64,000 nt of DNA from Micromonospora carbonacea (lineage in GTDB: Bacteria; Actinomycetota; Actinomycetes; Mycobacteriales; Micromonosporaceae), in NCBI RefSeq assembly GCF_014205165.1, contig NZ_JACHMZ010000001.1, forward strand, positions 3,060,501 through 3,124,500, read 5' to 3'. A program made the translations under genes and the position numbers. Shown here in pieces: positions 8,801-46,401 of the stretch. Under the pieces are notes generated by a model. The model was not told the DNA's origin. It made no database searches and was given only the letters and a program-made list of their open reading frames with translations. Each line of letters opens with the position of its first letter. Positions within the stretch are counted from its first letter, which is position 1.

Positions 8801-11800
8801 GCATCCACGCGGTGCTGCTCGGCTCGGCCGTCAACAACGACGGGTCGGGCAAGGTCGGGTGGACCGCGCCCGGGGTGGCGGGGCAGGTCGACGTGGTCCG
8901 GCGGGCGTTGCGCGACGCCGGGGTGCCGGCCGCCTCCATCGGGTACGTCGAGGCGCACGGCACCGGCACCGCCCTCGGCGACCCGGTCGAGCACCACGCG
9001 CTCGCCGAGGCGTACGCGCCCGCGCGGGCGTTCCTCGGCTCGGTGAAGGCCAACATCGGCCACCTGGACAGCTGCGCCGGCATGGCCGGGCTGATCAAGG
9101 CCGTGCTCGCCGTCCGCTCCGGCCGGGTGCCGCCGCAGATCAACTTCGCCCGGCCGAACCCCGCGCTGCGTCTGGCCGACGGGCCGTTCACGGTGACCAC
9201 CGTCGCCGCCGACTGGCCGGCGACCGGGGCGCCCCGGCGCGCCGCCGTCAGCGCCCTCGGCGTCGGCGGCACCAACGCCCACGTCGTCGTCGAGCAGCCG
9301 CCGGCCCCGCCGCCGCGCGCCGCCGACCCGCCCGACGTGGTTCCCGGGCTGCTGCCGATCTCCGCCGCCGACCCCGCCGCGCTGGCCGCGCTCGCCCTGC
9401 GGCACCGGGACCGGCTGCGCGCCGACCCCGACCTGGCCCTGGCCGACGTGGTGCGCACCGCCGGCACCGGCCGCCGGCACCTGGGCCACCGGCTCGTCGC
9501 CCTCGGTGGGTCGACCGCCGCCCTCGCCGAGGCCCTCGACCGGCACGCCGCCGGACTGCCGGCCGACGTGCTGACGGGCGAGGCCGGTGGGGACGCCGGC
9601 GGGCCGGTCGCCCTCGCCTTCCCCGGCCAGGGCGACGTCGGCGACGCGCTGCTCCCGCTGGCCGCCCGGTTCCCGGTCGTCCGGGTGGTGCTCGACGAGG
9701 CCGCCGCCGCGTACCGGGAGGCCGTCGGCGGCGACCTCGTCGCCCGGCTGCGCGCGGACCGGCCGGCCGTCGCCCGGCCCACCGACGTCGCCCAGCCGGC
9801 GCTGGTCGTCGCCGGGGTGGCACTGGCCCGGCTGTGGCGCTCGTGGGGCCTGTCCGTGGGCCACGTCCTCGGCCACAGCGTCGGCGAGTACACCGCCCTG
9901 GTCGTCGCGGGCGCGCTGCCCCTCGCCGACGCCGTGCGGCTCGCCGCCCACCGGGGCCGCCTGATGGCCGACCACCTGCCGCCCGGCGCGATGCTGGCGG
10001 TGCTGGCCGACCGGCCGACCGTGGACGCGCTGGCCGCCGGGTCGCCGCTGGAGCTGGCGGCGGTCAACGGGCCGACGCAGCACGTCCTCGCCGGCCCACC
10101 CGACGCCGTCGCCGCCGTCGCCGACCGGGCCGCCCGGCTCGGGGTGGCGACCCGGCGGCTCCCCGTCGACCGGGCGTTCCACTCGGCGGCGGTCGCGCCG
10201 GTGCTGGGCCCGCTGCGCGAGCTGGCCGCCACGGTCGAGTTCCGGCCGACCCGGCTGCCGCTGGTCAACGCCCTCGACGGCCGGGTCCGCCCGCCCGGCT
10301 GGCGGCCCGACGCCGAGCACCTGTGCCGGCACGCCCGCGAGCCGGTGCGCTGGCACGACGCGGTGTCCACCCTGTCCGCCGAGGCGGTCGCGACGGTGGT
10401 CGAGGCGGGCGCGGGCGGCCTGCTCACCGCCCTCGCGGGCACGACCGGAGCCGCCCCCGGGGCGACCGGCGCGGGGCCGCGGTGGGTGCCGTCGCAGCGG
10501 CGGGGGCTCGACCCGGTGGCGGGGCTGTGGCGGGCGGTGGCAGAGCTGCACGTCGCGGGCACGCCGGTGGACTGGGCGGCGCTCGTGGACGGGCACGGCG
10601 GACGCCGGGTGACGCTGCCCAGCTATCCCTTCCAGCGCCGCCCCTTCTGGGCGACCCCGGAGCCCGCAGCCGCATCGGCTCCCGTCGTGTCCCCGGCTCC
10701 CGTCGTGTCCCCGGCCCCCGCCGTGTCTCCTGCTCCCGCCGGTGACAGGCGGGCGGACGCGGTGCCGGCGGCGTCCCCGGCGGGGACGGCGGGCGGGGCG
10801 GACGCGGTGCTGGAGCGGGTCCGGGCGCTGACCGCCGAGCGACTCGGCCTGGCCGCCGCCGAGGTCGATCCGGACGCCGGCTTCTTCGCCCTGGGCGCGG
10901 ACTCGCTCCTGCTGATCACCATGTCCCGGGAGATCGAGCGCGACTTCGCCGTCCGGGTGCCGGTGCGGGACCTGTTCACCACCGTCGACACGCCGCGCCG
11001 GCTCGCCACGGCGATCACCGCCGCCGCGCCGCCGACCGGTCCGGACGCCACGGCGTCGGCGGCGTCCCCACCCGCCACCGACGGCGGACCGTCCGGGGAC
11101 GCCCGCCGGCCGGTGCCGGGCGAGCTGGTCGACGTCGTCCGGCAGCAGCTCGACCTGATGCGCCAGCAGCTCGCCCTGCTCGGTGTCGCCGCCGGCCTGC
11201 CGGCGGACCCGCCCACCGCCCCGCCGGAGCCCGCCGCCCCGCCGCGCCCCGCGCCCACGCCGGCCCCCGCGTACGCCCCGCCAACCCCCGCCCCCACCCC
11301 TGCGCCCCCGGCCCCCGCTTCCGTGCCGGTCCCCGTGTCCGGGCCGGCGCCTGCTGCCGCGCCGGCCGGCGCGGACCCGCGCCCGGCGGCCGGCGCGGCG
11401 ACGAGGCCGGACACCGTCGACTTCAGCCTCTACTTCTTCGGCGACTATCCCGACCAGGACCGCGACGACAAGTACGGCGTCATCGTCGACGCGGCGGAGT
11501 TCGCCGACGCGCACGGCTTCCACGCCGTCTGGCTGCCCGAGCGGCACTTCCACTCCTTCGGCGGCCTCTTCCCCAACCCGTCGGTCCTCGCCGCCGCCCT
11601 CGCGACCCGCACCCGGCGGGTACGGCTCAACGCCGGCTCGGTCGTGCTGCCGCTGCACCACCCCGTCCGGGTCGCCGAGGAGTGGTCCATGGTGGACAAC
11701 CTCTCCGGCGGCCGGATCGGGCTGGGCTGCGCGCCGGGCTGGCACGCCAACGACTTCGTCTTCCACCCCGAGCACTTCGGCCGGCACAAGCAGGTGATGT

Positions 11801-14800
11801 ACGAGCACCTGGAGACCGTCCGGCGGCTGTGGCGCGGGGACGCGGTGCCGGCCCGCTCCGGCAGCGGCGAGGCACTCGACGTGCGTCTGTTCCCCCGCCC
11901 GGTGCAGCCCGAGCCGCCGGTGTTCACGGCGATCGTCGGCAACCCCGACAGCTACCGGGAGGCCGCCCGCCGCGACGTCGGGGTGGTGACCAACCTGATG
12001 ACGCAGGACGTGGCGGGCCTCGCCGAGAACGTGGCGCTCTACCGGCGCACCCGCGCCGAGCACGGCCTCGACCCGGCCGGCGGGCGGGTGGTGGTGCTGC
12101 TGCACACCTACCTCGGCGAGGACGCCGACCGGGCCCGCGCCGAGGCGTTCGAGCCGTTCTGCGCGTACCTGCGCTCGTCGTTCAGCCTGCTCGGCCAGGT
12201 GGTCAACAGCCTCGGCATGAACATCGACCTGGCCGGCACCCCCGACGAGGACGTGCGGTTCGTGCTGGGGCGGGCGTACGAGCGGTACTGCGCGCAGCGG
12301 GCCCTCATCGGCTCGCCGCAGAGCTGCCGGTCCGTGGTGGAGGCGGTGCTCGCCGCGGGGGCCGACGAGATCGCCTGCTTCGTCGACTTCGGACTGCCCG
12401 CCGACGCCGTCCGCGCCGGCCTGCCGGTGCTCGACGCGCTGCGCCGGGCCACCCCGCGCCGACCCGTCGGCGACCCGCCGCACCCCGGCGGGCGGACCGC
12501 GCCGCTGTCGTCGGCGCAGCGCCGGCTGTGGCTGATGGAACGGCTGCACCCGGGCACGCCCGCCTACAACGAGGCGGCGGCCGTGCGGCTGGTCGGCCCC
12601 CTCGACCACGCCGCGCTGCGGGGCGCGCTGCGCGACGTGGTCGACCGGCACGCCCCGCTGCGCACCCACTACGCGGAGGTCGCCGGGGAGCCCCGGCAGG
12701 TCGTCCGCGACCGGGTGCCGGTCGAGCTGCCGGTGCGCGAGCACACCGGCGGGGCCGAGGACGAGGCGGTCCGCGCCGCGCTGGCCGCCGAGAGCCGCCG
12801 GGTGTTCGACCTGGCCGCCGGGCCGGTGTTCGCCTTCACGCTGCTGCGCTTCTCCGCCACCCGGCACGTGCTGGTGCTGGCCTTCCACCACCTGGCCACC
12901 GACGGCGGCTCGTACGCCGTGCTGACCGACGAGGTGTCGGCCCGCTACCGGGCCCGGGTGACCGGCGTCGCGGCGGAGCTGCCCCCGCTGCCGGTGACCT
13001 ACCCGGAGCTGGCGGCGGCCGGCGACGGCGAGCCCGACGACAAGGACCTGGCCTACTGGCGGGGCCAGCTCGACCCGGCCCCGCCCACCCTCGTCCTGCC
13101 CTCCGACCTGGCCCGCCCGGCGCTGCCGTCGGCGGCCGGGGAGAGCGTCTTCCGCGAGCTGCCCGCCGAGCTGGCGCGGCGGGTCCGGCGGTTCAGCCGC
13201 GCCGAGGGGGTCACCCCGTTCACCACCCTGCTGAGCGCGTTCGGGGTGCTGCTGTCCCGGTTCACCGGCCAGGACGACCTGGTGGTCGGCACCGGCACGA
13301 GCGGCCGGGACGAGCGGACCGCCGGCCTCGTCGGGTTCTTCGTGCGAACCCTCCCGCTGCGGCTGGACCTCACCGGCGACCCGAGCTTCCGCGAGCTGCT
13401 GGCCCGGGTGCGGGTCACCGCCGCCGACGGGTACGAGCACGACCGCGTCCCGTTCGACGCGCTGGTCGAGGCGGTCGCCCCGCACCGGGAGGCCGGCCGG
13501 CACCCCCTGTTCGACGTGGTGGTCGAGTACGAGAGCGGGCCCGGGGCGTTCGCCTTCGACCTGCCGGGCGTCACCGCCGAGCCGCTGCCGCTGGGCCTGG
13601 CCAAGGCCCCCGTCGACCTGATGGTCTACCTGTCGCACGGCGAGACGCTGCGCTGCCACGTGGAGTACCGCACCGACGTGCTCGACCGGGCGACCGTGGA
13701 CCGGCTGCTCGACCACCTGCACCGGCTGCTCGACGTGCTGACCCGCGCGCCGGGCGAGCCCCTGTCCCGGCTGGCCGCCCGGTTCGACGACCCCGCCGCC
13801 CGGCCGGTCGGCCCGCGTCCCGCGCCGGCCGCCGACCGGTTGCACGACCTGTTCCTCCGGCAGGCCGACCGGACCCCCGACGCGGTGGCCGTGGTCGACG
13901 GGGAGCGGCGGTGGACGTACCGGGAACTGCGGGACCGGGCGCGGGCGCTGGCCCGCCGGGTCGCGGCGCACGGCGTCGGCCCGGACGACCTGGTGGCGGT
14001 GCTGCTGCCGCGCCGGGCGGAGCTGGTCGCGGCGCAGCTCGGCGCGCTGCTGGCCGGCGCGGCATTCCTGCCGCTGGACCCGGACCTGCCGGCGGCCCGG
14101 CTGCGCGACCTGCTCGCCGACAGCGACGCCCGCCTGCTGCTGACCGCCGCCGACGTCGCCGACCCGTTCGCGGAGACCGGCTCCGGCGCCGGCGGATCCG
14201 CCCCGGGGGCCGCCGGTTCCGGAGCCGTCCGGGTGGCGCGGATGCTGGTGGACCGGCCCGGCGACCCCGGCCTGCCCGACCCCGTCGACGCCGCCGGCCC
14301 CGGCCACCTCGCCTGGTGCGTCCACACCTCCGGCTCCACCGGCCGCCCCCGGCTGGTGGGCGTGCCGCACCGGGCCGCCGTGGACGTCGTGGACTGGCAC
14401 GTCCGCGCCCTGGCCCTCACCGGCGCGGACACCGTGGCGCACGCGCTCGGCCTCGGGTTCGACGCGAACCTCGCCGAGATCCATCCGACGCTGGCCGCCG
14501 GGGCGACCCTGCACCTCGTGCCGTCGCGGGTGCGCGCGGACCCGGCGCGGCTGGTCGACCGGTGGCGGCGGGCCGGGGTGACGGTCGCCTACCTGCCGGC
14601 GCCCCTGGCGGAGCTGGTGTTCGCGGTGCCGCCGGCCCCGGCCGTCCGGGTCCTGGTGGTCGGGGGCAGCCAGCTGCGCCGCCGCCCGCCGGCCGGGTAC
14701 CCGGCGGAGGTCCTCGACGCCTACGGCCCGACCGAGGCCGCGATCGTCACCACCGCCGGCCCGGTGCCGCCCGCCGGGACGGGCCCGATCGATATCGGCC

Positions 14801-18523: not shown

Positions 18524-20232
<1,709 letters not shown>

Positions 20233-20236
<4 letters not shown>

Positions 20237-34729: not shown

Positions 34730-34758
34730 TTTACAACGAAAACCGTTTCCAACAAGAT
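34730..34758 (+). promoter_or_regulatory. promoter of the nine-gene metallophore-like operon
   Basis: TTTACA (34730-34735, 5 of 6 to the -35 consensus) and CAAGAT (34753-34758, 3 of 6) are separated by 17 bases in the AT-richest patch of the gap, 39 bases before the ATP-grasp start. The same CAAGAT hexamer with a 17-base spacer occurs before the exporter gene at 4527. Confidence 0.5.
34737..34751. promoter_or_regulatory. Zur-like operator in the promoter spacer
   Basis: CGAAAACCGTTTCCA; on the other strand TGGAAACGGTTTTCG. It is an interrupted palindrome (GAAAaC/GTTTtC halves) resembling actinobacterial Zur boxes of the TGAAAAnGnTTTTCA form, with few mismatches. It fills the spacer between the -35 and -10 elements, a position where a bound repressor would block RNA polymerase. 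Assignment to Zur rests on pattern memory and the gene content. Confidence 0.45.
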
Positions 34759-34796
34759 GTACCCGGGACGCCACCGCAACAGGACGGGAGTCGTTG

Positions 34797-36071
34797 ATGG
34801 GTCACCTGCTGGTCATCGAGAGCTGGGTGGGCGCGATGAGCGCCCTGCTGCCGAGGGCGATCCGGGAGGACGGCCACCGGTTCACGTTCCTCACCCGCGA
34901 CCTGCACCACTACCTGCGGGCGACGCCGCGCGGCGAGGTCCACCCGCTGCTCGCCGCCGACAACGTGGTCACCGCCGAGACCAACGACCCGGCGGCGCTC
35001 GCCGCACACGTCGCCCGGCTGCACGCCGCCCTGCGCTTCGACGGGGTGCTCACCTCCTGCGACTACTACCTGCACACCGCCGCCGAGGTCGCCGCCCACC
35101 TCGGGCTGCCCGGCCCCGACCCGGCGGCGGTGCGCCGCGCCTGCCGCAAGGACCTGGCCCGCGAGGCGATGCGCAGGGCGGGCCTGCCCGGGCCGGCGTT
35201 CGCGGTCGCCGGCGGCTGGGCGGACACCCTCGCCGCCGCCGAGCGGCTCGGCTTCCCGCTGGTCGTCAAGCCCGTCGACCTGTGCGCCGGCATGTACGTG
35301 CGCGCCGTCGCCGACCCCGCGCAGCTGCGCGCGGCGTACGACGCGCTGGCCGGCTTCGCCGTCAACGCCCGCCGGCAGCCCCGGGTGCCGCTGGTGCTGC
35401 TGGAGGAGCTGCTCACCGGCCCCGAGGTCAGCGTCGAGACCGTCACCCGCGACGGCGTCACCACGGTCGTCGGGGTCACCGACAAGAGCCTCGCCGGCAC
35501 GAGCGCGTTCGTCGAGAGCGGGCACATGTTCCCGGCCGACCTGCCCGCCCCCGCCGCCCGCGCCGCCGCCGACACGGCCGTGGCCGCGCTCGCCGCCGTC
35601 GGCCTCACCCACGGCGTCGCCCACACCGAGCTGCGCCTGACCCCGGCCGGGCCCCGGGTGGTCGAGGTCAACCCACGGCCCGCCGGCAACCAGATCACCG
35701 AGCTCGTCCGCCGGGTCACCGGCATCGACCTGCCGATGGCGTACGCGCGCCTCGCCCTCGGCGAGCGCCCCGACACCACGCCGGTCGACACGGGGGTACG
35801 CAGCGCCGCCATCGCGTTCCTGCTGCCGCCCCGGGCGGGCACGGTCGACGCGGTCACCGGCACCGACCGGCTGGCCGGTGATCCGTCCGTCGTGGACTGG
35901 GCGGTCAGGCCCCCCGGGCACCGCACCGGCGACGCCAGCAGCAACAACAGCTACCTCGGCCACGTCATGACCGTCGACACCGAGGGGCCGGGCGCGCGGG
36001 CCCGCGCCGAGGCGCACGTCGCCGCCCTCGACGTCCGGTACGCCGACCAGCTCGCCGGGACCGCCGCGTGA
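34797..36071 (+). CDS. ATP-grasp carboxylate-amine ligase
   Basis: A 424-residue ATP-grasp ligase. After an N-terminal Rossmann-like lobe (MGHLLVIESWVGAMSALLPRA), the ATP-grasp fold shows AAAERLGFPLVVKPVDLCAGMYVR (ATP-binding Lys), LLEELLTGPEVSVETVT (adenine-contact region) and HTELRLTPAGPRVVEVNPRPAGNQ (Mg-binding Glu and Asn). It resembles the biotin-carboxylase-like/BacD branch that forms amide bonds between amino acids or between an amino acid and another carboxylate. The ATG has a GGGAG ribosome-binding site. First gene of the operon; the next starts by a GTGA overlap at 36068. With the epimerase two genes later it may form the dipeptide backbone of a small metallophore (inference). Confidence 0.88.
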   Translation: MGHLLVIESWVGAMSALLPRAIREDGHRFTFLTRDLHHYLRATPRGEVHPLLAADNVVTAETNDPAALAAHVARLHAALRFDGVLTSCDYYLHTAAEVAAHLGLPGPDPAAVRRACRKDLAREAMRRAGLPGPAFAVAGGWADTLAAAERLGFPLVVKPVDLCAGMYVRAVADPAQLRAAYDALAGFAVNARRQPRVPLVLLEELLTGPEVSVETVTRDGVTTVVGVTDKSLAGTSAFVESGHMFPADLPAPAARAAADTAVAALAAVGLTHGVAHTELRLTPAGPRVVEVNPRPAGNQITELVRRVTGIDLPMAYARLALGERPDTTPVDTGVRSAAIAFLLPPRAGTVDAVTGTDRLAGDPSVVDWAVRPPGHRTGDASSNNSYLGHVMTVDTEGPGARARAEAHVAALDVRYADQLAGTAA

Positions 36072-36913
36072 CCGCCCCCGCCCCGGCCGCCGAACCCACC
36101 GCCCCCGACAGCCTCGACGACCTGGTGGCGGCGGCGCTCGCCGGCCGGCTCGGCCCCGACCCGGCGGGGGAGCGGGTCACCGTCGGGTTCGTCACCCGGC
36201 AGGGCGCCCGCCACCCCGGCCGCGCCCGGGGCTACCGCAACCACGTGCTCAGCCTGCGGGTCGGCGCCGCCGTCGGCTCCTGCGCCGTCGAGCCCGACGA
36301 GCTGCCCGACGACGTCGCCTACGACTGCGTGGGGTCCAGCGTGGCCGGGCTGCTGGCCCACCCGAGCCGGCCGGTGCGGGTCGCCGCGCTCGACGCGTAC
36401 CTGATGGGGGTGCGCCCGCACGCGGGCGCGGCGACCGACGTGGTGCCCGTGCCCGGCGGCACGTCGCTGGCCAAGTCGGCCGCCCGCGCCGCCGCCGTGG
36501 TCGACCTGCTGCCCGCCGAGCCCGGGCAGACCGTGCTGGTCGTCGGCGTGGTCAACTCCCTGCTCGCCGAGCTGCGCCGGCGCGGCCTGCGCTACCTGCC
36601 GTGCGACCTGGCCGGCGGGCGCACCGAGTGGGACGAGCCGTGCCTGCCCGACGCGGCGGCGCTGCTGGCACGCTGCGACGCGATCCTCGCCTCCGGCATG
36701 ACCCTGGGCAACGGCACCTTCGCGCCGCTGCTGCGCCACGCCCGGGCCACCGGCGTGCCGCTGGTGGCGTTCGCCCAGTCGGGCAGCGCGGTCCTGCCGC
36801 GCTTCCTCGGCGCGGGGCTGGCCGCCGTGTCGGCGGAGCCCTACCCGTTCTTCTGGCTCGACGGCGGCCCCACGCCGCTCTACCGCTACCGCGCCGACCG
36901 GGCGGACCGATGA
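36068..36913 (+). CDS. DUF364/DUF4213 'putative heavy-metal chelation' protein
   Basis: A 281-residue protein with the two-part layout of this family: an N-terminal DUF4213 enolase-N-like region (VGFVTRQGARHPGRARGYRNHVLSLRVGAAVGSCAVE) and a C-terminal Rossmann-like DUF364 region (GQTVLVVGVVNSLLAELRRR, ILASGMTLGNGTFAPLLRHARATGVPLVAFAQSGSAVLPRFL). The family name recalls proposed heavy-metal chelation, and members often lie near ABC metal or iron transporters; no activity is firmly known to me. The GTG overlaps the preceding stop by four bases and the stop overlaps the next ATG by four. Its presence is one of the main hints that this operon concerns a metal. Confidence 0.8.
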   Translation: MTAPAPAAEPTAPDSLDDLVAAALAGRLGPDPAGERVTVGFVTRQGARHPGRARGYRNHVLSLRVGAAVGSCAVEPDELPDDVAYDCVGSSVAGLLAHPSRPVRVAALDAYLMGVRPHAGAATDVVPVPGGTSLAKSAARAAAVVDLLPAEPGQTVLVVGVVNSLLAELRRRGLRYLPCDLAGGRTEWDEPCLPDAAALLARCDAILASGMTLGNGTFAPLLRHARATGVPLVAFAQSGSAVLPRFLGAGLAAVSAEPYPFFWLDGGPTPLYRYRADRADR

Positions 36914-37983
36914 CCGCGCCGCAGCTGCTCGACCTCGTCGGCCGCACGCCGGTGGTCCTCGTGGACGCCCCGCTGCCGCACCCGCAACCCGGCTTCCTCG
37001 CCAAGGTGGAGTGCCTGAGCCCCGGCGGGATGAAGGCCCGCGCGGCGGTGTCCATGCTGGCCGGCGCGCGCTCGCGCGGCGAGCTGGCCCCGGGGGCCCC
37101 GGTGGTGGAGTCGACCAGCGGCACCATGGGCGTCGGCCTCGCCTTCGCCGGGCAGGCCCTCGGTCACCCCGTGGTGCTGGTCGTCGACCGGGAGCTGGAG
37201 CCGTCCATGCGGGCGCTGCTGCGCGCCCACGGGGCCCGGCTGGAGGTGGTGGACGCCCCGCATCCCGTCGGCGGCTGGCAGCAGGCCCGCCTCGACCGGC
37301 TGCTCCGCGTGCGGGCCGCGCTGCCCGGCGCGTACTGGCCCGACCAGTACCGCAACCCCGACAACGCGGCCGGCTACGCCGGGCTCGCCGAGGAGATCGT
37401 CGCCCAGGTCGACGCCGTGGACACGCTGGTGTGCAGCGTCGGCACCGGCGGGCACAGCGCCGGCCTGGCCCGCGCGCTGCGCCGGCACTGGCCCCGGCTG
37501 CGCCTGGTCGGGGTGGACACCGTCGGCTCCACCATCTTCGGCCAGCCCGCCCGGGCCCGGCTGATGCGCGGGCTCGGCAGCAGCATCCACCCCCGCAACG
37601 TCGACTACGCCGCCTTCGACGAGGTGCACTGGGTCGCCCCCGCCGAGGCCGTCCAGAGCTGCCGGCGGCTGGCCCGGCACGCGTTCGTCACCGGCGGGTG
37701 GAGCACCGGCGCGACCGCCCGGGTCGCCGCCTGGGCGGCCCGGACCCGGCCCGGGGACCGGGTCCTCGCCGTCTTCCCCGACGGCCCGCACCGCTATCTC
37801 GACTCCATCTTCGACGACGACTACTGCGCCCGGCGGGGGCTGCTCGGCCCCACCCGGGGCCACCCCGTCGAGATCCCCCACCCCCGGGCGGTGGAGGTCA
37901 CCCGGTGGAGCCGGTGCCGCACCGTCGTCGACCCCCGGGCCCGCACCGTCGAGCCGGCCCGGGGACAGCGGGTGCCGGCATGA
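36910..37983 (+). CDS. cysteine-synthase-like PLP enzyme
   Basis: A 357-residue fold-type II PLP enzyme. The PLP lysine is in SPGGMKARAAVSML (canonical CysK has GGSVKDR), the substrate loop is TSGTMGVGLAFAG (canonical TSGNTG), and the phosphate-binding loop is SVGTGGHSAG. The Asn after TSG is replaced, and there is a 40-residue C-terminal extension (RHPVEIPHPRAVEVTRW region). Such divergence is typical of family members that make beta-substituted alanines, for example 2,3-diaminopropionate precursors, rather than cysteine. No ornithine cyclodeaminase-like SbnB partner is present. It probably supplies an unusual amino acid for the operon's product (inference). Starts by an ATGA overlap. Confidence 0.85.
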   Translation: MTAPQLLDLVGRTPVVLVDAPLPHPQPGFLAKVECLSPGGMKARAAVSMLAGARSRGELAPGAPVVESTSGTMGVGLAFAGQALGHPVVLVVDRELEPSMRALLRAHGARLEVVDAPHPVGGWQQARLDRLLRVRAALPGAYWPDQYRNPDNAAGYAGLAEEIVAQVDAVDTLVCSVGTGGHSAGLARALRRHWPRLRLVGVDTVGSTIFGQPARARLMRGLGSSIHPRNVDYAAFDEVHWVAPAEAVQSCRRLARHAFVTGGWSTGATARVAAWAARTRPGDRVLAVFPDGPHRYLDSIFDDDYCARRGLLGPTRGHPVEIPHPRAVEVTRWSRCRTVVDPRARTVEPARGQRVPA

Positions 37984-39032
37984 ACCTCGACTGGCGGGTC
38001 TACCCGCTGCCCCTCGCCGAGCCGCTGCGCATCTCCCGGTCGGTCATGGCCCGCCGCGACGCGGTCGCCGTGCGGCTGACCCACGACGGCGACGCCGGCC
38101 ACGGCGAGGTCGTCACCAGCGCGTACCAGGGCCTCGACCTGGGCCGCATCGGCGCGCTGCTGGCTGCCCTGCGCCCCCGGGTCACCGGGTACGCCGACCC
38201 GGAGGCGCTGCGCGCCGACCTGCCGGCCCTCGCCGTGGACCTGGCCGACGCGCCGGGGGTGCTGGGCGCGCTCGACGCCGCCGTGCACGACCTCGTCGGG
38301 CGGCGCGCCGGCCGGCCCGTGTGGCAGCTCGTCGACGCCCCCGCGAGGAAGCGGGTTCCGACCGCGTACACGATCGGGCTGGTGCCGCCCGCCGACGCCG
38401 CCGCCACCGCGCGGCGGCTGGTCGCGGCCGGCTTCACGGTGCTGAAGATCAAGGCCGGGGCGGACGACGACGTCGCCCGGGTCGCCGCCGTGCGGGCCGC
38501 CGCCCCGGCGGCCCGGCTGCTGCTCGACCCCAACGGGGCGTGGACGCCCCAGCGGACCGTCCGGGTCCTCGACGCCGTCGCCGCCTGCGCCGTGGACGCC
38601 GTCGAGCAGCCCGTCCCGCCCGGCGACCCGGACGCGCTGGCCTGGATCGCCGCCCGGGTCGCGGTGCCCGTCGTCGCCGACGAGGACGTCGCCACCGTCG
38701 CCGACGTGCACCGCCTCGCCGGATCCGTCGCCGGCATCAACGTCAAGCTCGCGAGGTGTGGCGGGGTGGCCGCCGCGCGCCGGCTGATCGACGCCGCGGC
38801 CGGGCACGGCCTGGACGTCCTGCTCGGCTGCCTGGTCGCGAGCACGCTCGGCATCGCCCCGGCGCTGCACCTGGCCGGGCACGCCCGCTGGGTCGACCTG
38901 GACGGGCACCTGCTGCTCGCCGCCGACCCGTGGACCGGCATCGGCGGCGGCGACGGCGTCCTGCGTACCCCCGACGGGCCCGGCCTGGGGGTGCGCCCGG
39001 CGCGGGCCGACGACCGGGCGGTGGCCCGGTGA
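37980..39032 (+). CDS. dipeptide epimerase (enolase superfamily, MLE subgroup)
   Basis: A 350-residue enolase-superfamily enzyme. Catalytic residues line up: K156-x-K158 in VLKIKAG, metal ligands Asp183 (LLDPNGAW), Glu209 (VEQPV) and Asp234 (ADEDV), and Lys256 in NVKLARCGG. The N-terminal capping domain has ISRSVMARRDAVAVRLT. The pattern is that of L-Ala-D/L-Glu epimerase-like dipeptide epimerases, which invert one alpha-carbon of a dipeptide. A muconate-lactonising or o-succinylbenzoate synthase role is unlikely, as no pathway genes are near. In an operon with an ATP-grasp ligase, epimerising a ligated dipeptide is the natural reading (inference). ATGA overlap with the preceding gene. Confidence 0.88.
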   Translation: MNLDWRVYPLPLAEPLRISRSVMARRDAVAVRLTHDGDAGHGEVVTSAYQGLDLGRIGALLAALRPRVTGYADPEALRADLPALAVDLADAPGVLGALDAAVHDLVGRRAGRPVWQLVDAPARKRVPTAYTIGLVPPADAAATARRLVAAGFTVLKIKAGADDDVARVAAVRAAAPAARLLLDPNGAWTPQRTVRVLDAVAACAVDAVEQPVPPGDPDALAWIAARVAVPVVADEDVATVADVHRLAGSVAGINVKLARCGGVAAARRLIDAAAGHGLDVLLGCLVASTLGIAPALHLAGHARWVDLDGHLLLAADPWTGIGGGDGVLRTPDGPGLGVRPARADDRAVAR

Positions 39033-40276
39033 TCGCGACCTGGACGACGCTGCGCGGCTTCCCGCCGGCGATCCGGCTGCTGGTGGTCAACCAGCTCGGC
39101 GTCAACGTCGGCTTCTACCTGCTGCTGCCCTACCTCGCCGGCTACCTCGCCGACGACCTCGGCCTGTCCGCCGCCGTGATCGGCCTGGTCCTGGGCGTGC
39201 GCAACCTCAGCCAGCAGGGCCTGTTCCTGCTCGGCGGGTCCGCCTCCGACCGGCTCGGCGCGCGCGGGGTGATCATCGCCGGGTGCGCGCTGCGCGCCGT
39301 CGGCTTCGGCGTCTTCGCCGTCGGGGTGTCGCTGCCGGCGCTGCTGGCCGCCTCCGTGCTCTCCGGCCTGGCCGGCGCGCTGTTCAACCCGGCGGTGCGG
39401 GCCTACCTCGCGCAGGCCGCCCCGGACCGGCGCGCGGAGGCGTTCGCGCTGTTCAACGTGTTCGCCAGCGCCGGGGCCCTGCTCGGGCCGCTGCTCGGCA
39501 GCGCGCTGCTGCTTGTCGACTTCCGGGCCGCCGCCCTCGCCGCGGCCGGCGTGTTCGTGGCGCTGACCGTGGCGCAGGCCCTGGTGCTGCCGCCGCAGCC
39601 GGCCCGCAGCAGCGGGCAGAGCGTGCTGGGGGACTGGCGCGAGGCCGTCACCGACCGCCGGTTCCTCGCCTTCACGCTCGCGCTCAGCGCGATGTTCGCC
39701 CTCCAGAACCAGCTCTACCTGGTGCTGCCCGTGCAGGCGCAGCAGGCCGGCGGGCATCCGCTCGCCGTGGCGTCGCTGTTCGTCGTCTCCACCGTGGTGA
39801 CCCTCGCCTGGCAGGTGCCGGTGACCCGCTGGCTGCACCGCCGCCTCGCCCGGGGCCCGGCCATCGCGGTCGGCCTGGCGGTCATGGGCGGGGGCTTCGT
39901 GCTGCCGCTCGTGCCGGTCGGCGGCCCCGCCGGCCCCGTCCGGCTCGCGCCGGTGCTCGGCGCGGCCGTGCTGCTCGCCGTCGGGGTGCTGATCGCCCAG
40001 CCGTTCGTGCTGGAGCTGATCCCGGCGTTCGCCCGCGATGGGCTCACCGGCACCTACTTCGGGCTGTTCTACCTGGTCTCCGGGGTGGTCGCGGCGGCCG
40101 GCACGACCGCCGTCGGCCGCGCCATGGACGACGGGTCCGGCGGCGGGGTGCCGGCGGTGGCGTGGCTGCTCTGCGCCGCGCTGGGCGGGGCCTCCGCAGC
40201 GGCCGTCTGGGCGCTGCACCGCCGGGGCGCGCTCGACCCGACGCCCGCGCCCGCCCCGTCGGCGGTGCCCGCGTGA
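39029..40276 (+). CDS. MFS exporter of the metallophore-like operon
   Basis: A 415-residue MFS protein with about 12 membrane segments, starting near residue 12 (IRLLVVNQLGVNVGFYLLLPYLAGYL). Motif A region: GGSASDRLGARGVIIAGCALRAVG. Central cytoplasmic loop LPPQPARSSGQSVLGDWREAVTDRRFLAFT. It resembles the YfcJ/MdtG-like drug-exporter branch. Position between biosynthetic genes and the importer suggests it exports the product, as CntE does in staphylopine systems (analogy). Linked to both neighbours by GTGA overlaps. Confidence 0.88.
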   Translation: MIATWTTLRGFPPAIRLLVVNQLGVNVGFYLLLPYLAGYLADDLGLSAAVIGLVLGVRNLSQQGLFLLGGSASDRLGARGVIIAGCALRAVGFGVFAVGVSLPALLAASVLSGLAGALFNPAVRAYLAQAAPDRRAEAFALFNVFASAGALLGPLLGSALLLVDFRAAALAAAGVFVALTVAQALVLPPQPARSSGQSVLGDWREAVTDRRFLAFTLALSAMFALQNQLYLVLPVQAQQAGGHPLAVASLFVVSTVVTLAWQVPVTRWLHRRLARGPAIAVGLAVMGGGFVLPLVPVGGPAGPVRLAPVLGAAVLLAVGVLIAQPFVLELIPAFARDGLTGTYFGLFYLVSGVVAAAGTTAVGRAMDDGSGGGVPAVAWLLCAALGGASAAAVWALHRRGALDPTPAPAPSAVPA

Positions 40277-41160
40277 GCGGCCGGCGGGCCCGGCGGGCCG
40301 CCGGCACCGGCTTGCGCGGCGACACCGGCACGAGCGACGGTGCCGGGGCGGCCACCGCCGGGGCCAACCTGCTCACCGACAACCCCGCGCTGTACGAGGC
40401 GCAGTTCCCCGACCCGCAGCACCTCGCCGCCGGCTTCGTCGACGACCTGCTGCGCCGGTACGCGCCCCCCGGCCGCCGGCTGCTCGACGTCGGCTGCGGC
40501 ACGGGCCGCGACGCCGGGTGGCTCGCGCAGCTCGGCTGGGCCGCCACCGGCATCGACACGTCGACGGCGATGCTCGCCCACGCCCGCCGCCGGCACCCCC
40601 GGGTCCGGTTCGTGGCCGCCGACATGCGCGGCTTCGACCTCGCCGCCCGGTTCGACGCGGTGACCTGCCTGGACAGCGCCCTGCTCTACTGCCACACCAA
40701 CGCCGACCTCACCGCGTTCCTGGCCCGGTGCCACGCGCACCTGGCCCCGGGCGGGCTGCTGCTGGCCGAGCTGCGCAACGGCGCGTTCTTCCTCGGCAAC
40801 ACCGAACTGCTCGACGGCACGTCGGTGCGCACGGTGCCGTGGCGCGGCGTCGCCTACACGTCCCGGACCCGGCTGTGGATCGACCACGCGGCGCAACTGC
40901 TGCGCCGGGAACGCGCCTGGAGCTGGCCCGGAGCGCCCGAGCCGCTGGTGCAGACCTCGGCCTGGCGGCTGCTGTTCCCCCAGGAACTGCGTCACCTGCT
41001 CGACACGGCCGGCTTCGACGTGCTGGCGATGTTCGACGCGCCGGGCCCGCGCACCGAACCGCCGTGGCGGCCCGGCGCGGCGCTGTCCACCACCCTGCGC
41101 GGCGACCGGCTGCACCTGCTGGCCCGCCGCCGACCCTCTCGACTGGAGGAAACCCCGTGA
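40273..41160 (+). CDS. SAM-dependent class I methyltransferase
   Basis: A 295-residue protein with a Gly/Ala/Arg-rich N-terminal 30 residues and a Rossmann methyltransferase core: LLDVGCGTGRDAGWLAQLG (SAM-binding motif I), GIDTSTAMLAHARRRHPRVRFVAADMRGFDL (motifs II-III), FDAVTCLDSALLYCHTNADL (motif IV) and LAPGGLLLAELRNGAF. It is close to small-molecule N- or O-methyltransferases of the Methyltransf_25/11 type. In this operon it may N- or O-methylate the product (inference). GTGA overlaps at both ends. The binding-protein start that follows has an excellent GGAGGAA ribosome-binding site, suggesting that the importer is translated at higher level. Confidence 0.87.
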   Translation: MSGRRARRAAGTGLRGDTGTSDGAGAATAGANLLTDNPALYEAQFPDPQHLAAGFVDDLLRRYAPPGRRLLDVGCGTGRDAGWLAQLGWAATGIDTSTAMLAHARRRHPRVRFVAADMRGFDLAARFDAVTCLDSALLYCHTNADLTAFLARCHAHLAPGGLLLAELRNGAFFLGNTELLDGTSVRTVPWRGVAYTSRTRLWIDHAAQLLRRERAWSWPGAPEPLVQTSAWRLLFPQELRHLLDTAGFDVLAMFDAPGPRTEPPWRPGAALSTTLRGDRLHLLARRRPSRLEETP

Positions 41161-42719
41161 CATCCGTCATCCCCGCGCCCGCCGCCCGGCTGACCCGGCG
41201 CGGACTGCTCGGCGGCGCAGCCGCCGCGTCGGCCACCCTGCTGGCCGGGTGCGGCGACCGCCCCGCCGACACCGCCTCCGACCGGCCACGCCGGGGCGGC
41301 CGGCTGCGTGCCGTGTTCGCCGGCGGCGGCGCGCAGGAGACCCTCGACCCGCACCTGGCGAACCTGTTCAACGAGGCGTCCCGGGCCAAGGCCATGTTCG
41401 ACAAGCTCGCCGACTACGGCCCCGACGTGTCGATCCGGCCCCGCCTGGCCAGCGGCTGGGAGCCCAACGCCGATCTCACCCGGTGGCGGGTCACCCTGCG
41501 CGAGGCGACCTTCCACGACGGCCGCCCCGTGCGCGCCGCCGACGTGCTGCACAGCTACGCCCGGATCACCGACCCGAAGCGCGCCTTCCGGGCCCGGGCC
41601 AGCCTGGAGCTGATCGACCTGCGCGGCAGCCGGGCCGTCGACGACCGGACCGTCGAACTCGCGCTGCGCCGGCCGTTCGCCGAGTTCCCCAACGTCCTGG
41701 CGGCCTTCGGCGCGTACGTGGTGCCCGAGGGCGTCGACGCCTTCGACCGGCCCGTCGGGTCCGGCCCGTTCGCCTTCGGCGCGTTCCAGCCCGGCCGGTC
41801 CCTGCTGCTCAGGCGGTACGCCGACCACTGGGACGGCGCGCCGTACCTGGACGAGCTGGAGTACCTCGTGGCCAACGACGAGTCCGCCCGGATCAACGCG
41901 CTGCTCGGCGGGCAGGCCGACTACGCCCACGACGTCACGCCCACCACCGCCCGCACCTACGCGGGCGACGCGCGGGTGCGGATCACCCGGATGGCCAACA
42001 GCACCATGCAGGCCCTCGCCATGAAGGTCGACCGGCCGCCGTTCGACAACCGGGACCTGCGCGAGGCGATGTTCCTGCTCGCCGACCGCCGGCAGCTCGT
42101 CGACACCGTGCTCTCCGGCGCCGGCCAGGTCGGCAACGACCTGTTCGGCAGGGGCTACCAGCACTACGCCGACGGCATCGCCCAGCGCGTGCCGGACCTC
42201 GACCGGGCCCGCTTCCTCGTCGACCGGGCCGGTGCCCGGGGGCTGCGGATCCCGCTGGACACCGCCCCCGTGGCCAGCGGCTTCGTGGAGACCGCCAGCG
42301 TCTTCGCCGAGCAGGCCCGGCAGGTCGGGCTGACCGTCGAGGCGCGCAGCGGCAACAAGGACACCTACTGGAAGGACATCCTGACGGGCGGGGTGCTCGC
42401 CTGCTACCGCTCGGGGGCGATGCCCATCGAGACCCACATCTCCCAGCGGCTGTTGAGCACGTCGACCACCAACGCGACCGGATGGCGGCGGCCCGACTTC
42501 GACGCGCGCTACGCCCGCGCCGTGTCCAGCGCCGACGAGCGGGCCCGCCGGCAGGCGTACGGCGACATGCAGCGCGTCCTGCACGCCGAGGGCGGCTTCC
42601 TGGTGTGGGGGTTCGCCGACTTCCTCGTGGCCACCAGCCCCCGCGTGGGCGGCGTCTCGGCCGCCGCGCCGGCCAACACCCTCGACTGGGCGCGCTTCGA
42701 CAAGGTCTGGCTGGGTTGA
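41157..42719 (+). CDS. peptide/nickel-type ABC substrate-binding lipoprotein
   Basis: A 520-residue solute-binding protein of family 5 (OppA/DppA/NikA). The N-terminus has a Tat-type RRGLLGG (Arg14-Arg15) and a lipobox LLAGC with Cys32, so it is a secreted, membrane-anchored lipoprotein. Conserved family blocks: ETLDPHLANLFNEASRAKAMFDKLADYG, ATFHDGRPVRAADVLHSYARITDP, PVGSGPFAFGAFQPGRSLLLRRYADHWDG, NALLGGQADYAHDV and AMFLLADRRQLVDTVLSGAGQVGNDLF. It binds peptides, nickel or metal-metallophore complexes in relatives such as CntA; the ligand here is inferred to be the operon's product. GTG start behind GGAGGAAACCCC. Confidence 0.92.
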   Translation: MTSVIPAPAARLTRRGLLGGAAAASATLLAGCGDRPADTASDRPRRGGRLRAVFAGGGAQETLDPHLANLFNEASRAKAMFDKLADYGPDVSIRPRLASGWEPNADLTRWRVTLREATFHDGRPVRAADVLHSYARITDPKRAFRARASLELIDLRGSRAVDDRTVELALRRPFAEFPNVLAAFGAYVVPEGVDAFDRPVGSGPFAFGAFQPGRSLLLRRYADHWDGAPYLDELEYLVANDESARINALLGGQADYAHDVTPTTARTYAGDARVRITRMANSTMQALAMKVDRPPFDNRDLREAMFLLADRRQLVDTVLSGAGQVGNDLFGRGYQHYADGIAQRVPDLDRARFLVDRAGARGLRIPLDTAPVASGFVETASVFAEQARQVGLTVEARSGNKDTYWKDILTGGVLACYRSGAMPIETHISQRLLSTSTTNATGWRRPDFDARYARAVSSADERARRQAYGDMQRVLHAEGGFLVWGFADFLVATSPRVGGVSAAAPANTLDWARFDKVWLG

Positions 42720-43666
42720 GCCTGCCCCGTTACGCCGCCCGGCGGGCCCTGGTCGGGGCCGGGCAGGTCGTCGGCGTCGCCACCGTCGTCTTCGTCCTGA
42801 CCGAGGCGCTGCCCGGGGACGCCGCCGTGGTGATCGCCGGCGACCAGCCCGACCCCGCGCGCATCGCCCTCCTGCGCGAGCAGCTCGACCTGGACCGGCC
42901 CGCCTGGCACCGGTACCTGGACTGGCTCGCCGACCTGGCCGGGGGCGACCTGGGCGTCTCGCTGGTCTCCCAACGGCCGGTCGCCGGGGTCCTCGCCGCC
43001 GGGGCCGCGCCCACCGTGCTGCTCGCCGCCGCGACGCTGCTGCTGCTCGTCCCGCTCTCCGTCGGGCTGGGGACGCTCGCGGCGCGGCGCGAGGGCGGCC
43101 GCCTCGACCGGGCGCTGTCCGCCGCCGCCGTCGGCCTGTACGCGGTGCCCGAGTTCGCCCTGGCCCTGCTGCTCGTCGCGGTCTTCGGCGTACGGCTGGC
43201 CTGGCTCCCGCCCACCGCCGTCGGCACCGGCGGCGACCTGCTGTCCCGCCCCGCCGTGCTGGTGCTGCCGCTGGCGGTGCTGCTGGCCCGCCCGTTCTGC
43301 TCGCTGAGCCGGCTGACCCGCGCCGGCATGGTCGAGGCGATGCGCGCGGAACACGTCGCGCACGCCCGCCGGCTCGGCGTGCCCGAGCCCCGGTTGTGGC
43401 TGGTCCACGCGCTGCCGAACGCCCTCGCGCCCGTCGCCCAGCAGCTCGCCCGCACCACCGACTGGCTGCTCGGCGGGGTGATCGTCGTCGAGGCGGTGTT
43501 CGTCGTCCCCGGCCTGGGCACCGCCCTGGTCGACGCGGTGACGGCGCGTGACGTCCCCACCGTGCAGGGGCTGTGCGTGCTGGTCGCCGTGACCACGGTG
43601 ACGGTGAACCTCGCCGCCGACCTGGTGGCCTTCCGGCTCGCCCCGCGCGCCGGGGCCGCCACGTGA
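42716..43666 (+). CDS. ABC permease (DppB/NikB type)
   Basis: A 316-residue inner-membrane permease with six membrane segments. N-terminal PRYAARRALVGAGQVVGVATVVFVLTEALPGD is typical of DppB; the EAA loop is EAMRAEHVAHARRLGVPEPRLWLVHALPNALAP, which docks the ATPase. The start is a TTG overlapping the binding-protein stop (TTGA), the rarest start in this operon, perhaps limiting its translation relative to the lipoprotein. Ends in a GTGA overlap with the fusion gene. Confidence 0.9.
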   Translation: MSLPRYAARRALVGAGQVVGVATVVFVLTEALPGDAAVVIAGDQPDPARIALLREQLDLDRPAWHRYLDWLADLAGGDLGVSLVSQRPVAGVLAAGAAPTVLLAAATLLLLVPLSVGLGTLAARREGGRLDRALSAAAVGLYAVPEFALALLLVAVFGVRLAWLPPTAVGTGGDLLSRPAVLVLPLAVLLARPFCSLSRLTRAGMVEAMRAEHVAHARRLGVPEPRLWLVHALPNALAPVAQQLARTTDWLLGGVIVVEAVFVVPGLGTALVDAVTARDVPTVQGLCVLVAVTTVTVNLAADLVAFRLAPRAGAAT

Positions 43667-46401
43667 GCCCGCAGGGCGGGGGCCGTCGCCGGGGCCCGCT
43701 GCGCGGATTCCGCCGGGTGGGGCCCCTGCGCCGCCACCGCCCGGTGGCCCCCGGGCGGCTCGCCGGTCGCCCGGCGGGGTCGCGGCTGCGCCTCGCCGTC
43801 GGCGTCGCGCTGCTCGCCGTACCCCTGCTGGTCGCCGTGGCGGGGCCGGCCCTGGCCGGCGACGCGGCACCGCGCGGACGGCCGTTCGACCCGGGCGGCG
43901 CGTTCGGCACCGACTTCGTCGGGCGCGACGTGCTGCGCCAGGCGCTGCTCGGCGGGCGCTCCGTGGTCGGCGTGGCGCTCGCCGCGACCGCCCTGGCGTA
44001 CCTGGCGGGGGTGCCGTTGGGGCTGCTCGCCGCGCTGACCCGCCGCCGGTGGGTCGACGAGCTGGTCATGCGCCCCCTGGACCTGCTGCTCGCCGTGCCG
44101 TCGCTGATCCTGCTGATCCTGCTGGCGGCCACCGCGCCGCGCGGGCCGGCCACCCTGGTCGGCATCGTCGCGCTGATCGGCCTGCCCGAGGTCGCCCGGA
44201 TCAGCCGCGCGGCGGCGCTGCCGCTGGCGCACGGCCCGGCCATGGAGGCGATGCGGCTGTACGGGGAGACGTGGTGGCGGCGCGCCGTCGGCCACGTCGT
44301 GACCGGCAGCCGCCGGGTGCTGCTCGCCGACGCGGGCGTGCGGTTCGTCGGCGCGTTGTACCTCGTCGCCACGGCCAGCTTCCTCGGCGTCGGCGTCGCC
44401 CCCGACGCCGCCGACTGGGCGGTCATGGTGGACCGCAACCGTGCCGGGCTGCTGCTGCAACCCTGGTCGGTGCTGGTGCCCGCCGCTCTCCTCGTCGCCC
44501 TCGCCGTCGGCGTCAACCTCGTCGCCGACCGGCTGCTGACCACCCGCGGCGACGCCACCGGCCGGGCCGCGGCCGGCGAGGACACCCCCCGCGACGACGC
44601 CGGCCACGACGCCGGCCGTGGCGGGGCCGCCCCCGAGGACGCCGCCCGCGAGGACGCCGGCCCCGTCGGGCCGCCCGGCCGCGCCGTGCCCGGGCCGCGC
44701 CGGCCCGCCGGCCGGGAGCGCCGCGCCGACCCGACCGCCGCCGGCAGGCCGACGTCGCCGGTGGACTCCCGCCCGCCGGTCCGGGTGGTCGGGCTCGACG
44801 CCGGGGTCGCCGGGCGTCGCCTGCTCGCCGGGGTCTCGTTCACGGTGGCGGCGGGCGAGGTGCTCGCCCTCGTCGGCCGCTCCGGCAGCGGCAAGACCAC
44901 CGCCGGTCGGGCCCTGCTGGGGGAGGCCGGCCCCGGCGTCCGCCTCGCCGGCCGGGTGGAGGTGGCCGGCCGTCCCGTGTCCCCGGCGACCCCACCACCC
45001 CCGGGCGTCGTCGGCTACGTCCCGCAGCAGCCGTCGGCGGCGCTCAACCCGGTCCGCCGGGTCGGCGCGGTGCTGCGCGAGGTCGCCCGGCGGCACGCCC
45101 GGCCGGTGCGGCGGACCCCCGGCCGCCCGTCGCGGCGCGCGGCGGCCCGCACGACGGTGGCCGGGCGGGAGACGGTGCGTCGGGCGGTGGCCGACGCGCT
45201 GGCCCGCGTCGACCTGCCCGCCGACCGGGAGTTCCTGCGGCGCTTCCCGCACCAGCTCTCCGGCGGCCAACAGCAGCGCCTCGTCGTCGCCCACGCGCTG
45301 CTGGCCAGGGCGCGCGTCCTGGTCGCCGACGAGCCGACCACCGGGCAGGACAGCCTCACCCGCCGCGACGTCGCCCACGAGCTGCGGGCCCTCGCGGACG
45401 CCGGGCTGGCGGTGGTGCTGCTCAGCCACGACCTGCACCTGGTGCGCGCCGTGGCCGACCGGCTGGTCGTCCTGGACGCCGGCGTGGTCGTCGAGGCCGG
45501 GGCGGCGGCCGACGTGCTCGCCGCCCCCCGGGACGAACGCACGCGCCGCCTGCTCGCCGCTGCCCCGGCCGCGTCGAGTGCCGTCGCCCCCGCCGCGCCC
45601 CGCGTCGCCGTGCCGCGTGCCGCCGCTCCCGCCGGAACACCGGCGCTGCGCGTGCGCGACCTGGCCGCGGCCCACCGCGCCGGTGCCCGCCGCCGTGGCG
45701 TGCTGCACGCGGTCACCGCCGCCGTCGCCCCCGGCGGGTGCCTCGCCGTGGTCGGCCGCTCCGGCAGCGGCAAGACGACGTTCGCCCGCTGCGTCGCCGG
45801 GCTGCACCCGCCGCGCGGCGGAACGGTCGGCCTCGGCGGCCGGCCGCTGGCGGCGACCCTGGACCGGAGAACCCGGGCGGACCTCGCCGCCGTCCAGTAC
45901 GTCTTCCAGGACGCCCGGGCCAGCTTCCACCCCCACCGGTCGGTCCTGGAGCAGGTGTCCCGGGCCGCCGTGCGGCTGCGCGCCCTGCCGCCGGCCCGGG
46001 CCCGCGACGCCGCGCGCCGCGTCCTCGGCGAGACCGGGCTCACGGCGGACGTCGTCGCGCGTCGCCCCGACCGGCTCTCCGGCGGCGAGCTGCAACGCGC
46101 CGCCCTGGCCCGGGCGCTGCTCGCCGAGCCCCGCGTGGTGATCTGCGACGAGATCACCTCGGGGCTGGACGCGGTCAGCCGGGACCGGATCGTGGCCCTC
46201 GTCGACCGGCTGCGCCGCACCCGGGGGCTGGCCCTCGTGGTGATCAGCCACGACCGTGACGTCGTCGCCCGCCTCGCCGACCACGTCGTCGTCCTGGACG
46301 CGGGGCGGGTCGTGGAGGCCGGGCCCGCGGCCGCCCTGCTCACCGCCCCCCGGCACCCGCTGACCCGGGCGCTGCTGCACACATCGCAGCCGGCCGCCTG
46401 A
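43663..46401 (+). CDS. fused ABC permease plus two ATPase domains (DppC-DppD-DppF in one chain)
   Basis: A 912-residue three-module protein. Residues 1-285: DppC-type permease with DFVGRDVLRQALLGGRS and the EAA loop AMEAMRLYGETWWRRAVGHVV. Residues 290-370: charged Asp/Glu/Arg/Pro linker. Residues about 370-630: ATPase 1, Walker A GRSGSGKTT near 404, signature LSGGQQQR near 533, Walker B LVADEPTT. Residues about 655-905: ATPase 2, Walker A GRSGSGKTT near 698, signature LSGGELQR near 805, Walker B VICDEITSG. In standard Dpp/Nik/Cnt systems these are three separate genes. Both ATP sites appear intact. It completes the importer with the 41157 and 42716 products. It is the last gene of the operon; a converging gene lies 29 bases beyond. 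Confidence 0.92.
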   Translation: MSPQGGGRRRGPLRGFRRVGPLRRHRPVAPGRLAGRPAGSRLRLAVGVALLAVPLLVAVAGPALAGDAAPRGRPFDPGGAFGTDFVGRDVLRQALLGGRSVVGVALAATALAYLAGVPLGLLAALTRRRWVDELVMRPLDLLLAVPSLILLILLAATAPRGPATLVGIVALIGLPEVARISRAAALPLAHGPAMEAMRLYGETWWRRAVGHVVTGSRRVLLADAGVRFVGALYLVATASFLGVGVAPDAADWAVMVDRNRAGLLLQPWSVLVPAALLVALAVGVNLVADRLLTTRGDATGRAAAGEDTPRDDAGHDAGRGGAAPEDAAREDAGPVGPPGRAVPGPRRPAGRERRADPTAAGRPTSPVDSRPPVRVVGLDAGVAGRRLLAGVSFTVAAGEVLALVGRSGSGKTTAGRALLGEAGPGVRLAGRVEVAGRPVSPATPPPPGVVGYVPQQPSAALNPVRRVGAVLREVARRHARPVRRTPGRPSRRAAARTTVAGRETVRRAVADALARVDLPADREFLRRFPHQLSGGQQQRLVVAHALLARARVLVADEPTTGQDSLTRRDVAHELRALADAGLAVVLLSHDLHLVRAVADRLVVLDAGVVVEAGAAADVLAAPRDERTRRLLAAAPAASSAVAPAAPRVAVPRAAAPAGTPALRVRDLAAAHRAGARRRGVLHAVTAAVAPGGCLAVVGRSGSGKTTFARCVAGLHPPRGGTVGLGGRPLAATLDRRTRADLAAVQYVFQDARASFHPHRSVLEQVSRAAVRLRALPPARARDAARRVLGETGLTADVVARRPDRLSGGELQRAALARALLAEPRVVICDEITSGLDAVSRDRIVALVDRLRRTRGLALVVISHDRDVVARLADHVVVLDAGRVVEAGPAAALLTAPRHPLTRALLHTSQPAA

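Follow-up and report, generated by a model that had tools for sequence, protein, structure and literature searches.

When a 64,000-nucleotide stretch of the Micromonospora carbonacea genome (assembly GCF_014205165.1, contig NZ_JACHMZ010000001.1, forward-strand positions 3,060,501 to 3,124,500; hereafter the window) was analyzed, nine consecutive plus-strand genes were observed at 34797-46401. The source genome is a single contig of 7.53 Mb, in which the window is C1:3060501-3124500, and the nearest named relatives of one of the nine products, a DUF364 protein, are from Micromonospora. A preliminary description of the window had proposed that these genes form an operon for the synthesis, export and re-uptake of a metallophore. 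All eight consecutive four-base overlaps that it listed were found in place (36068 GTGA, 36910 ATGA, 37980 ATGA, 39029 GTGA, 40273 GTGA, 41157 GTGA, 42716 TTGA and 43663 GTGA), with the common direction and the frames as described. Its start at 34730 was wrong: the frame from 34730 is non-coding, so the first gene starts at the ATG at 34797, and 34730-34796 is upstream DNA containing a Zur-like box. Four-base overlaps are frequent locally (12 of 35 same-strand neighbour pairs among the genes called in the window); thus, the overlaps indicate an operon and nothing beyond.

The first gene (34797-36071) encodes an ATP-grasp ligase with an L-amino-acid-ligase C-terminal domain (PF13535, PF18603). 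Its nearest solved sequence is the L-amino acid ligase 3vot, and the alanine-anticapsin ligase BacD is among its solved relatives. The DUF364 protein (36068-36913) scored above the Pfam cut-off (PF04016), has the expected enolase-N-like plus Rossmann-like fold and is probably a biosynthetic enzyme. The third gene (36910-37983) encodes a pyridoxal 5'-phosphate (PLP)-dependent beta-substituting enzyme for which TIGR03945 was the best NCBIfam model (249.5 bits, against 162 for cysKM and 145.5 for cysK), so that the earlier label of divergent cysteine synthase is refined to SbnA-like. Lys47, Arg132 and Tyr152 were present in 80/80 sequences (the window and 79 related loci). In SbnA these positions include the PLP lysine and, together with S185, the O-phosphoserine-selecting residues R132 and Y152 (PMC12414870; this and the other published sources are used here in excerpt). 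Gln151 of SbnA was also kept. The fourth product (37980-39032) is a dipeptide-epimerase-like racemase of the enolase superfamily by its domain matches; the catalytic KxK motif and second lysine, the three metal ligands and the DxD motif were each found in 76 or 77 of 77 sequences. The DxD motif is of recognized significance in this type of epimerase.

The remaining five genes encode an MdtH-like major facilitator superfamily (MFS) transporter (39029-40276), presumed from its family matches to be an exporter, an S-adenosylmethionine-dependent methyltransferase (40273-41160) and an importer. The nearest solved relatives of the methyltransferase are amino-sugar N,N-dimethyltransferases, and its real start may lie downstream of the called start. 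The importer consists of a family-5 solute-binding lipoprotein of the Opp/NikA/opine type (41157-42719), a Nik/Opp-type permease B (42716-43666) and permease C fused to two ATPase domains (43663-46401). It had been called complete, and all its parts are present; its second permease shares a single 912-aa polypeptide with the two ATPase domains. The binding lipoprotein scored best with nickel-type models, its closest solved sequences are AgaA (6hlx) and the nickel-binding protein 3t66, and its N terminus, read by eye, has a twin-arginine motif and a lipobox-like sequence. The other families that had been assigned were likewise confirmed by domain searches. In these searches none of the nine proteins contained a non-ribosomal peptide synthetase (NRPS), IucA/IucC (NRPS-independent siderophore synthetase, NIS), ornithine-cyclodeaminase, argininosuccinate-lyase or peptidase domain, nor a nicotianamine-synthase-like or opine-dehydrogenase domain, the last two as had been stated before. 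A whole-genome search with PF10100 returned no match, and control genomes were equally silent.

When a DUF364 profile built from 18 sequences was applied to one-genome-per-species contigs, 304 encoding places were found and the best 80 were kept. In 67 of these 80 loci, from Micromonospora to Streptomyces, all nine are present and colinear, and therefore the gene order is not due to chance. Six of the other 13 loci stop at a contig edge (L027, L031, L037, L038, L054 and L087), L009 is N-rich, L043 contains some N, and L010 and L086 have every gene except that for the methyltransferase. The overlaps are best kept at the ATP-grasp/DUF364 (79/80), DUF364/SbnA-like (73/80), SbnA-like/epimerase (74/78) and binding protein/permease (70/70) junctions, and less so at the epimerase/MFS (47/76), MFS/methyltransferase (52/72), methyltransferase/binding protein (8/69) and permease/permease (10/69) junctions. 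By gene calling, 8 of the 69 loci that could be judged have the fused permease-ATPase gene and the other 61 have it split. All eight fusion loci are, as we take it, from Micromonosporaceae.

Profile matches were found in 6 of 396 genomes of a phylum sample (four type 1 by score, see below), in 16 of 250 genomes of the window's family (15 type 1 by score) and in 98 of 246 Streptomyces genomes, approximately two fifths. Four plasmid records (NZ_CP109328.1, NZ_CP104318.1, NZ_CP108777.1 and NZ_CP108785.1), all large Streptomyces or Embleya plasmids, contain stretches resembling the part of the operon for DUF364 and the PLP enzyme (79-82 % identity over 77-87 % of a 2-kb query), and therefore the system may travel on plasmids.

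A 15-base Fur-family palindrome, CGAAAACCGTTTCCA, is located at 34737-34751 on the plus strand, 45 bases 5' of the first ATG, and is kept in relatives. The Zur motif from chromatin immunoprecipitation (ChIP) in S. coelicolor is tGaNNatSatNNtCa, and the znuA motif from 17 actinobacteria is taaTGaNAANNNTTNtCANta (PMC5472717). When the 250 bases preceding the ATP-grasp gene were scored at the 10 fixed central positions of taaTGaNAANNNTTNtCANta, 74 of 78 promoters matched at 8 or more positions. The same score was reached by 23 of 1560 dinucleotide shuffles and by 37 of 1557 random windows; some of the latter overlap with the real site. At 9 or more positions the counts were 61/78, 1/1560 and 22/1557, respectively. 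For the ChIP motif, which has 11 fixed positions, a score of at least 9 was reached by 60/78 promoters, 28/1560 shuffles and 68/1557 random windows. L009 and L014 were set aside for N or length, and the promoters are related, so that these counts are not independent.

Three Streptomyces genomes were also scanned for TGANAAYNATTNTCA with one mismatch allowed. The 21 rows returned, compared with 2 when the pattern was reversed, fall at 16 distinct loci. Five sites lie at three znuA promoters (four named by eye). L31/L33 and L32 with a following CobW/COG0523 gene account for one site each, as does an ABC-3 permease with an ATP-binding cassette (ABC) ATPase; two sites lie at operons of the nine-gene type, two at genes for other family-5 binding proteins and the remaining four elsewhere. 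A published Zur-regulon table (PMC6103462) includes genes of the L32 and COG0523 types. Of the 80 operon loci, 5 (L026, L029, L049, L058 and L068) have an L32 paralogue, a COG0523-type (CobW) gene or both in their neighbourhood; a weak ZnuA-like gene (28 % identity) was found near one, and L31 or L33 paralogues near none. Recurrence near Zur-regulon genes, raised in the preliminary description, was mainly positive: the promoter box is conserved across genera, and regulon genes adjoin some loci. From these sequence comparisons we infer that the operon is under Zur control.

Some of the boxes stand beside genes of other types. Two of the four sites classed as elsewhere adjoin YcaO genes. In S. 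anulatus, the Zur-type box TGAAAATCATATTCA lies between a FecCD/ABC importer and an open reading frame (ORF) for a 44-aa peptide (L166:6080-10408; G005:C15:28092), which is followed by peptidase-S15 and YcaO genes, and a YcaO gene beside a box was also seen in another Streptomyces (L104:1501-3015). It is possible that these loci encode Zur-regulated zincophores that are azole-type ribosomally synthesized and post-translationally modified peptides. In S. flavidovirens (L117; G006:C28:47180), a family-5 binding protein gene, the product of which is approximately 22-27 % identical to that of the operon, lies directly 3' of a Zur-type box.

Gene content, synteny, conserved residues and a conserved Zur-type box thus agree with the earlier metallophore reading, to which the box adds evidence. 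We consider it quite probable that the locus is a Zur-repressed operon for the synthesis, export and re-import of a small zinc metallophore, made without NRPS, NIS, nicotianamine-synthase or opine-dehydrogenase genes; its chemistry, metal and direction of transport are deduced. When zinc is replete, zinc-loaded Zur would bind the box at 34737-34751 and block transcription, as the conserved motif and the regulon suggest. When zinc is scarce, the SbnA-like enzyme would condense an activated serine, probably O-phosphoserine, with the amine of an amino acid. By analogy with SbnA, the product, an aminocarboxylate chelating unit, would be an N-(2-amino-2-carboxyethyl) amino acid. The ATP-grasp ligase could then couple this unit to another amino acid, the epimerase could flip one stereocentre of the dipeptide-like product and the methyltransferase could methylate it, with DUF364 presumably performing a core step of unspecified kind. 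The MFS protein would carry the product out of the cell, and the Opp/NikA-type binding lipoprotein with its ABC importer would retrieve the zinc complex. A small methylated dipeptide, as proposed before, remains a guess for the product.

The metal itself may be questioned. The source genome contains four Fur-family genes and the binding protein fits nickel-type models best, so that a metallophore for Ni, Co, Cu or Fe, with the box read by Nur, Mur or FurA, can be envisaged. Staphylopine-type chelators bind several metals, which also counts for this view. However, the box fits the 15-bp Zur motif, the scan of the three Streptomyces genomes with that motif returned znuA, L31/L33 and L32/COG0523 as well, and the znuA box of the source genome scores 8/10, equal to the operon box. 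That znuA operon comprises ZnuA, an ABC ATPase and an ABC-3 permease, with the best-scoring of the four Fur-family genes downstream. We regard another metal as unlikely, and zinc is more likely than nickel.

A second system with Zur-type boxes also recurs. In S. flavidovirens a motif site led to an operon with a binding protein 47-50 % identical to the listed type-1 proteins, together with permeases, ATPases, a methyltransferase-like protein, an SbnA-like PLP enzyme, a PhyH dioxygenase, DUF364, an MFS protein and a Fur-family gene. When the DUF364 profile scores of the 246 Streptomyces genomes were compared, they split into type 1 (at least 437 bits, 59 genomes) and type 2 (244-271 bits, 40 genomes). 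Both types occurred in one genome against 9.6 expected (Fisher p = 9e-5, phylogeny ignored). One locus of this sample (L131, G169) and L025 of S. fructofermentans are identical. We examined 23 type-2 loci (L120 and L139-L160), namely 21 of the 40 from the Streptomyces sample, one from the phylum sample and that of S. flavidovirens. All 23 contain an MFS gene and a PLP enzyme no more than two genes from DUF364; Lys47, Arg132, Gln151 and Tyr152 are kept in 23/23 of these enzymes, and the two that were tested matched SbnA best, at 127 and 133 bits, compared with 77 and 84 bits from the best cysteine synthase model. When boxes of at least 9 positions were sought in the 430 kb, 16 matches were found, compared with none for the reversed motif.

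The type-2 importers are of the Opp type in four loci (L120, L141, L142 and L144) and of the FecCD type in seventeen; an importer was not identified in L143 and L147. Each of the seventeen loci of the FecCD type has a GHMP-kinase match; in four, the identity is only 33-37 % and the gene lies on the opposite strand. Same-strand GHMP kinase, DUF364 and SbnA-like genes were seen in L139, L140, L148, L149, L151-L158 and L160. The kinase could supply the O-phospho amino acid to the PLP enzyme.

On balance we lean, by a modest amount, towards regarding DUF364 and the SbnA-like enzyme as the core of an unrecognised zincophore superfamily that is independent of NRPS, NIS and nicotianamine synthase and has at least two diverged lineages. 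The chelator-forming reaction of DUF364 would then be new, and ATP-grasp/epimerase, GHMP kinase, PhyH dioxygenase or HemK-like methyltransferase, and Opp or FecCD importers would be modular fittings.

The type-2 loci also bear on the product. With 3vot and BacD among the solved relatives of the ligase and an MdtH-like MFS protein, the operon could be read as making an exported zinc-responsive antimetabolite or signalling dipeptide of the bacilysin kind, with the Opp importer only recycling the product or related peptides. This seems to us improbable, considering the Zur-type box, the zinc-regulon genes adjoining some loci, the likeness of the binding protein to AgaA 6hlx and the nickel-binding 3t66, its closest solved sequences, and the pairing of the type-2 core with a FecCD-type importer in 17/23 loci.

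Several observations weigh against a Zur-controlled zincophore operon and its type-2 counterpart. The window's own box matches only 8 of the 10 positions, and a loose motif (up to 2 mismatches) is not specific in the source genome (53 places, against 24 for the reversed pattern). The SbnA-like enzyme misses the curated SbnA cut-off (249.5 against 349.95 bits), cystathionine beta-synthase equals SbnA (5d87) in score among solved sequences, and Ser185 is replaced by Gly in 80/80 sequences. The 80 loci are related and non-independent because they were selected by DUF364 similarity, and in four of them, L015 (Actinoplanes), L040 (Nonomuraea) and the Streptomyces loci L043 and L069, several genes are missing inside the contig. 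Phylogeny is left out of account in the exclusivity test, and both types occur together in S. flavidovirens, which is not among the genomes matched in that sample. Boxes of at least 9 positions were found in only 13 of the 23 type-2 loci. Eight of the other ten have an 8/10 site between the importer and exporter genes; no such site was found there in L147 and L153, and four further 8/10 sites lie elsewhere in these ten loci. Finally, a TAP-like alpha/beta hydrolase gene is divergent from the operon in 23/80 loci (for example L016:6988-8466), and its presence is unexplained.

This hydrolase could be a secreted peptidase and may share the Zur box of the operon. Together with the complete importer, its position beside the operon would suit the import of environmental zinc-peptide complexes, with the enzymes degrading or remodelling the imported peptide. 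Epimerase and ATP-grasp families are also found in peptide recycling. Such a role is nevertheless highly improbable in our view, as a ligase, an SbnA-like beta-substituting enzyme, a methyltransferase and an MFS protein make little catabolic sense and no peptidase family is among the nine proteins. Cell-wall recycling neighbours, which the preliminary description had raised as a competing context, were looked for in part: among the flanking families, only the GNAT acetyltransferase (40/80 loci) and TAP-like hydrolase families recur in more than 10 loci, and the acetyltransferase was not found in the M. carbonacea window.

The surroundings of the operon in the window appear separate. A flavin reductase gene ends upstream at 34273, and STAS-domain and two-component genes lie downstream. 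The flavin reductase was matched in 2/80 related loci (L008 and L009) and the response regulator, weakly, in 1/80 (L062); therefore neither flank is part of the conserved cluster. A 3,682-aa ORF at 5860-16908 is followed by a stand-alone AMP-binding enzyme gene at 18590-20236; these same-strand genes are probably a biosynthetic cluster of their own. ARAGORN called a tRNA with a four-base anticodon at 7578-7670, within this ORF, which is probably a false positive.

Compared with known systems, the operon shares with the opine zincophores (staphylopine Cnt and pseudopaline) a dedicated, here presumed, exporter and ABC re-import. Opine clusters use two importer classes, a dipeptide/oligopeptide type and a FecCD type (Morey and Kehl-Fie 2020, PMC7438024), and both occur beside the DUF364 core. 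Unlike them, the operon has no nicotianamine-synthase-like or opine-dehydrogenase domain, its core being SbnA-like, DUF364, ATP-grasp and epimerase proteins. By the features tested it is outside the opine family, and its operating logic would be like that of staphylopine or ethylenediamine-disuccinic acid (EDDS) systems. The [S,S]-EDDS of Amycolatopsis japonicum is Zur-controlled (PMC6103462, PMC12161575). Actinobacterial origin, Zur control (for the operon, by sequence) and aminocarboxylate chemistry are common to both, the SbnA-like step being the likely former of the chelating unit. Set against the familiar EDDS gene content, the operon has ATP-grasp, epimerase and DUF364 genes and, by domain search, no ornithine-cyclodeaminase or argininosuccinate-lyase domain. 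Coelibactin of S. coelicolor, a Zur-regulated non-ribosomal peptide (PMC6103462, PMC3430247), is likewise a candidate Zur-controlled actinomycete zincophore, whereas the operon has no NRPS domain. With the SbnA of staphyloferrin B (PMC12414870) the operon has its best-matching family and the four kept residues in common; it differs in the Ser185 to Gly change, the lack of an SbnB or NIS synthetase domain and a zinc-type instead of an iron-type control. A role for DUF364 in metal-chelator synthesis was already proposed from Dhaf4260 (3l5o; Miller et al. 2010, PMC2954201), the two-domain fold of which is common to the operon's protein. Unlike that work as excerpted, DUF364 is here tied to a defined operon, a Zur-type box, an SbnA-like partner and two diverged lineages.

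The actinobacterial zincophores named in the excerpted sources are the NRPS-made coelibactin, the opine type and EDDS. To these the operon adds a defined set of genes, a promoter-based test and, as a marker, DUF364 adjoining an SbnA-like enzyme, which would find a seemingly chemically different class of zincophores, common in Streptomyces. DUF364, a 'putative heavy-metal chelation' domain by structure and gene context since 2010, thereby gains a setting in which its reaction can be measured.

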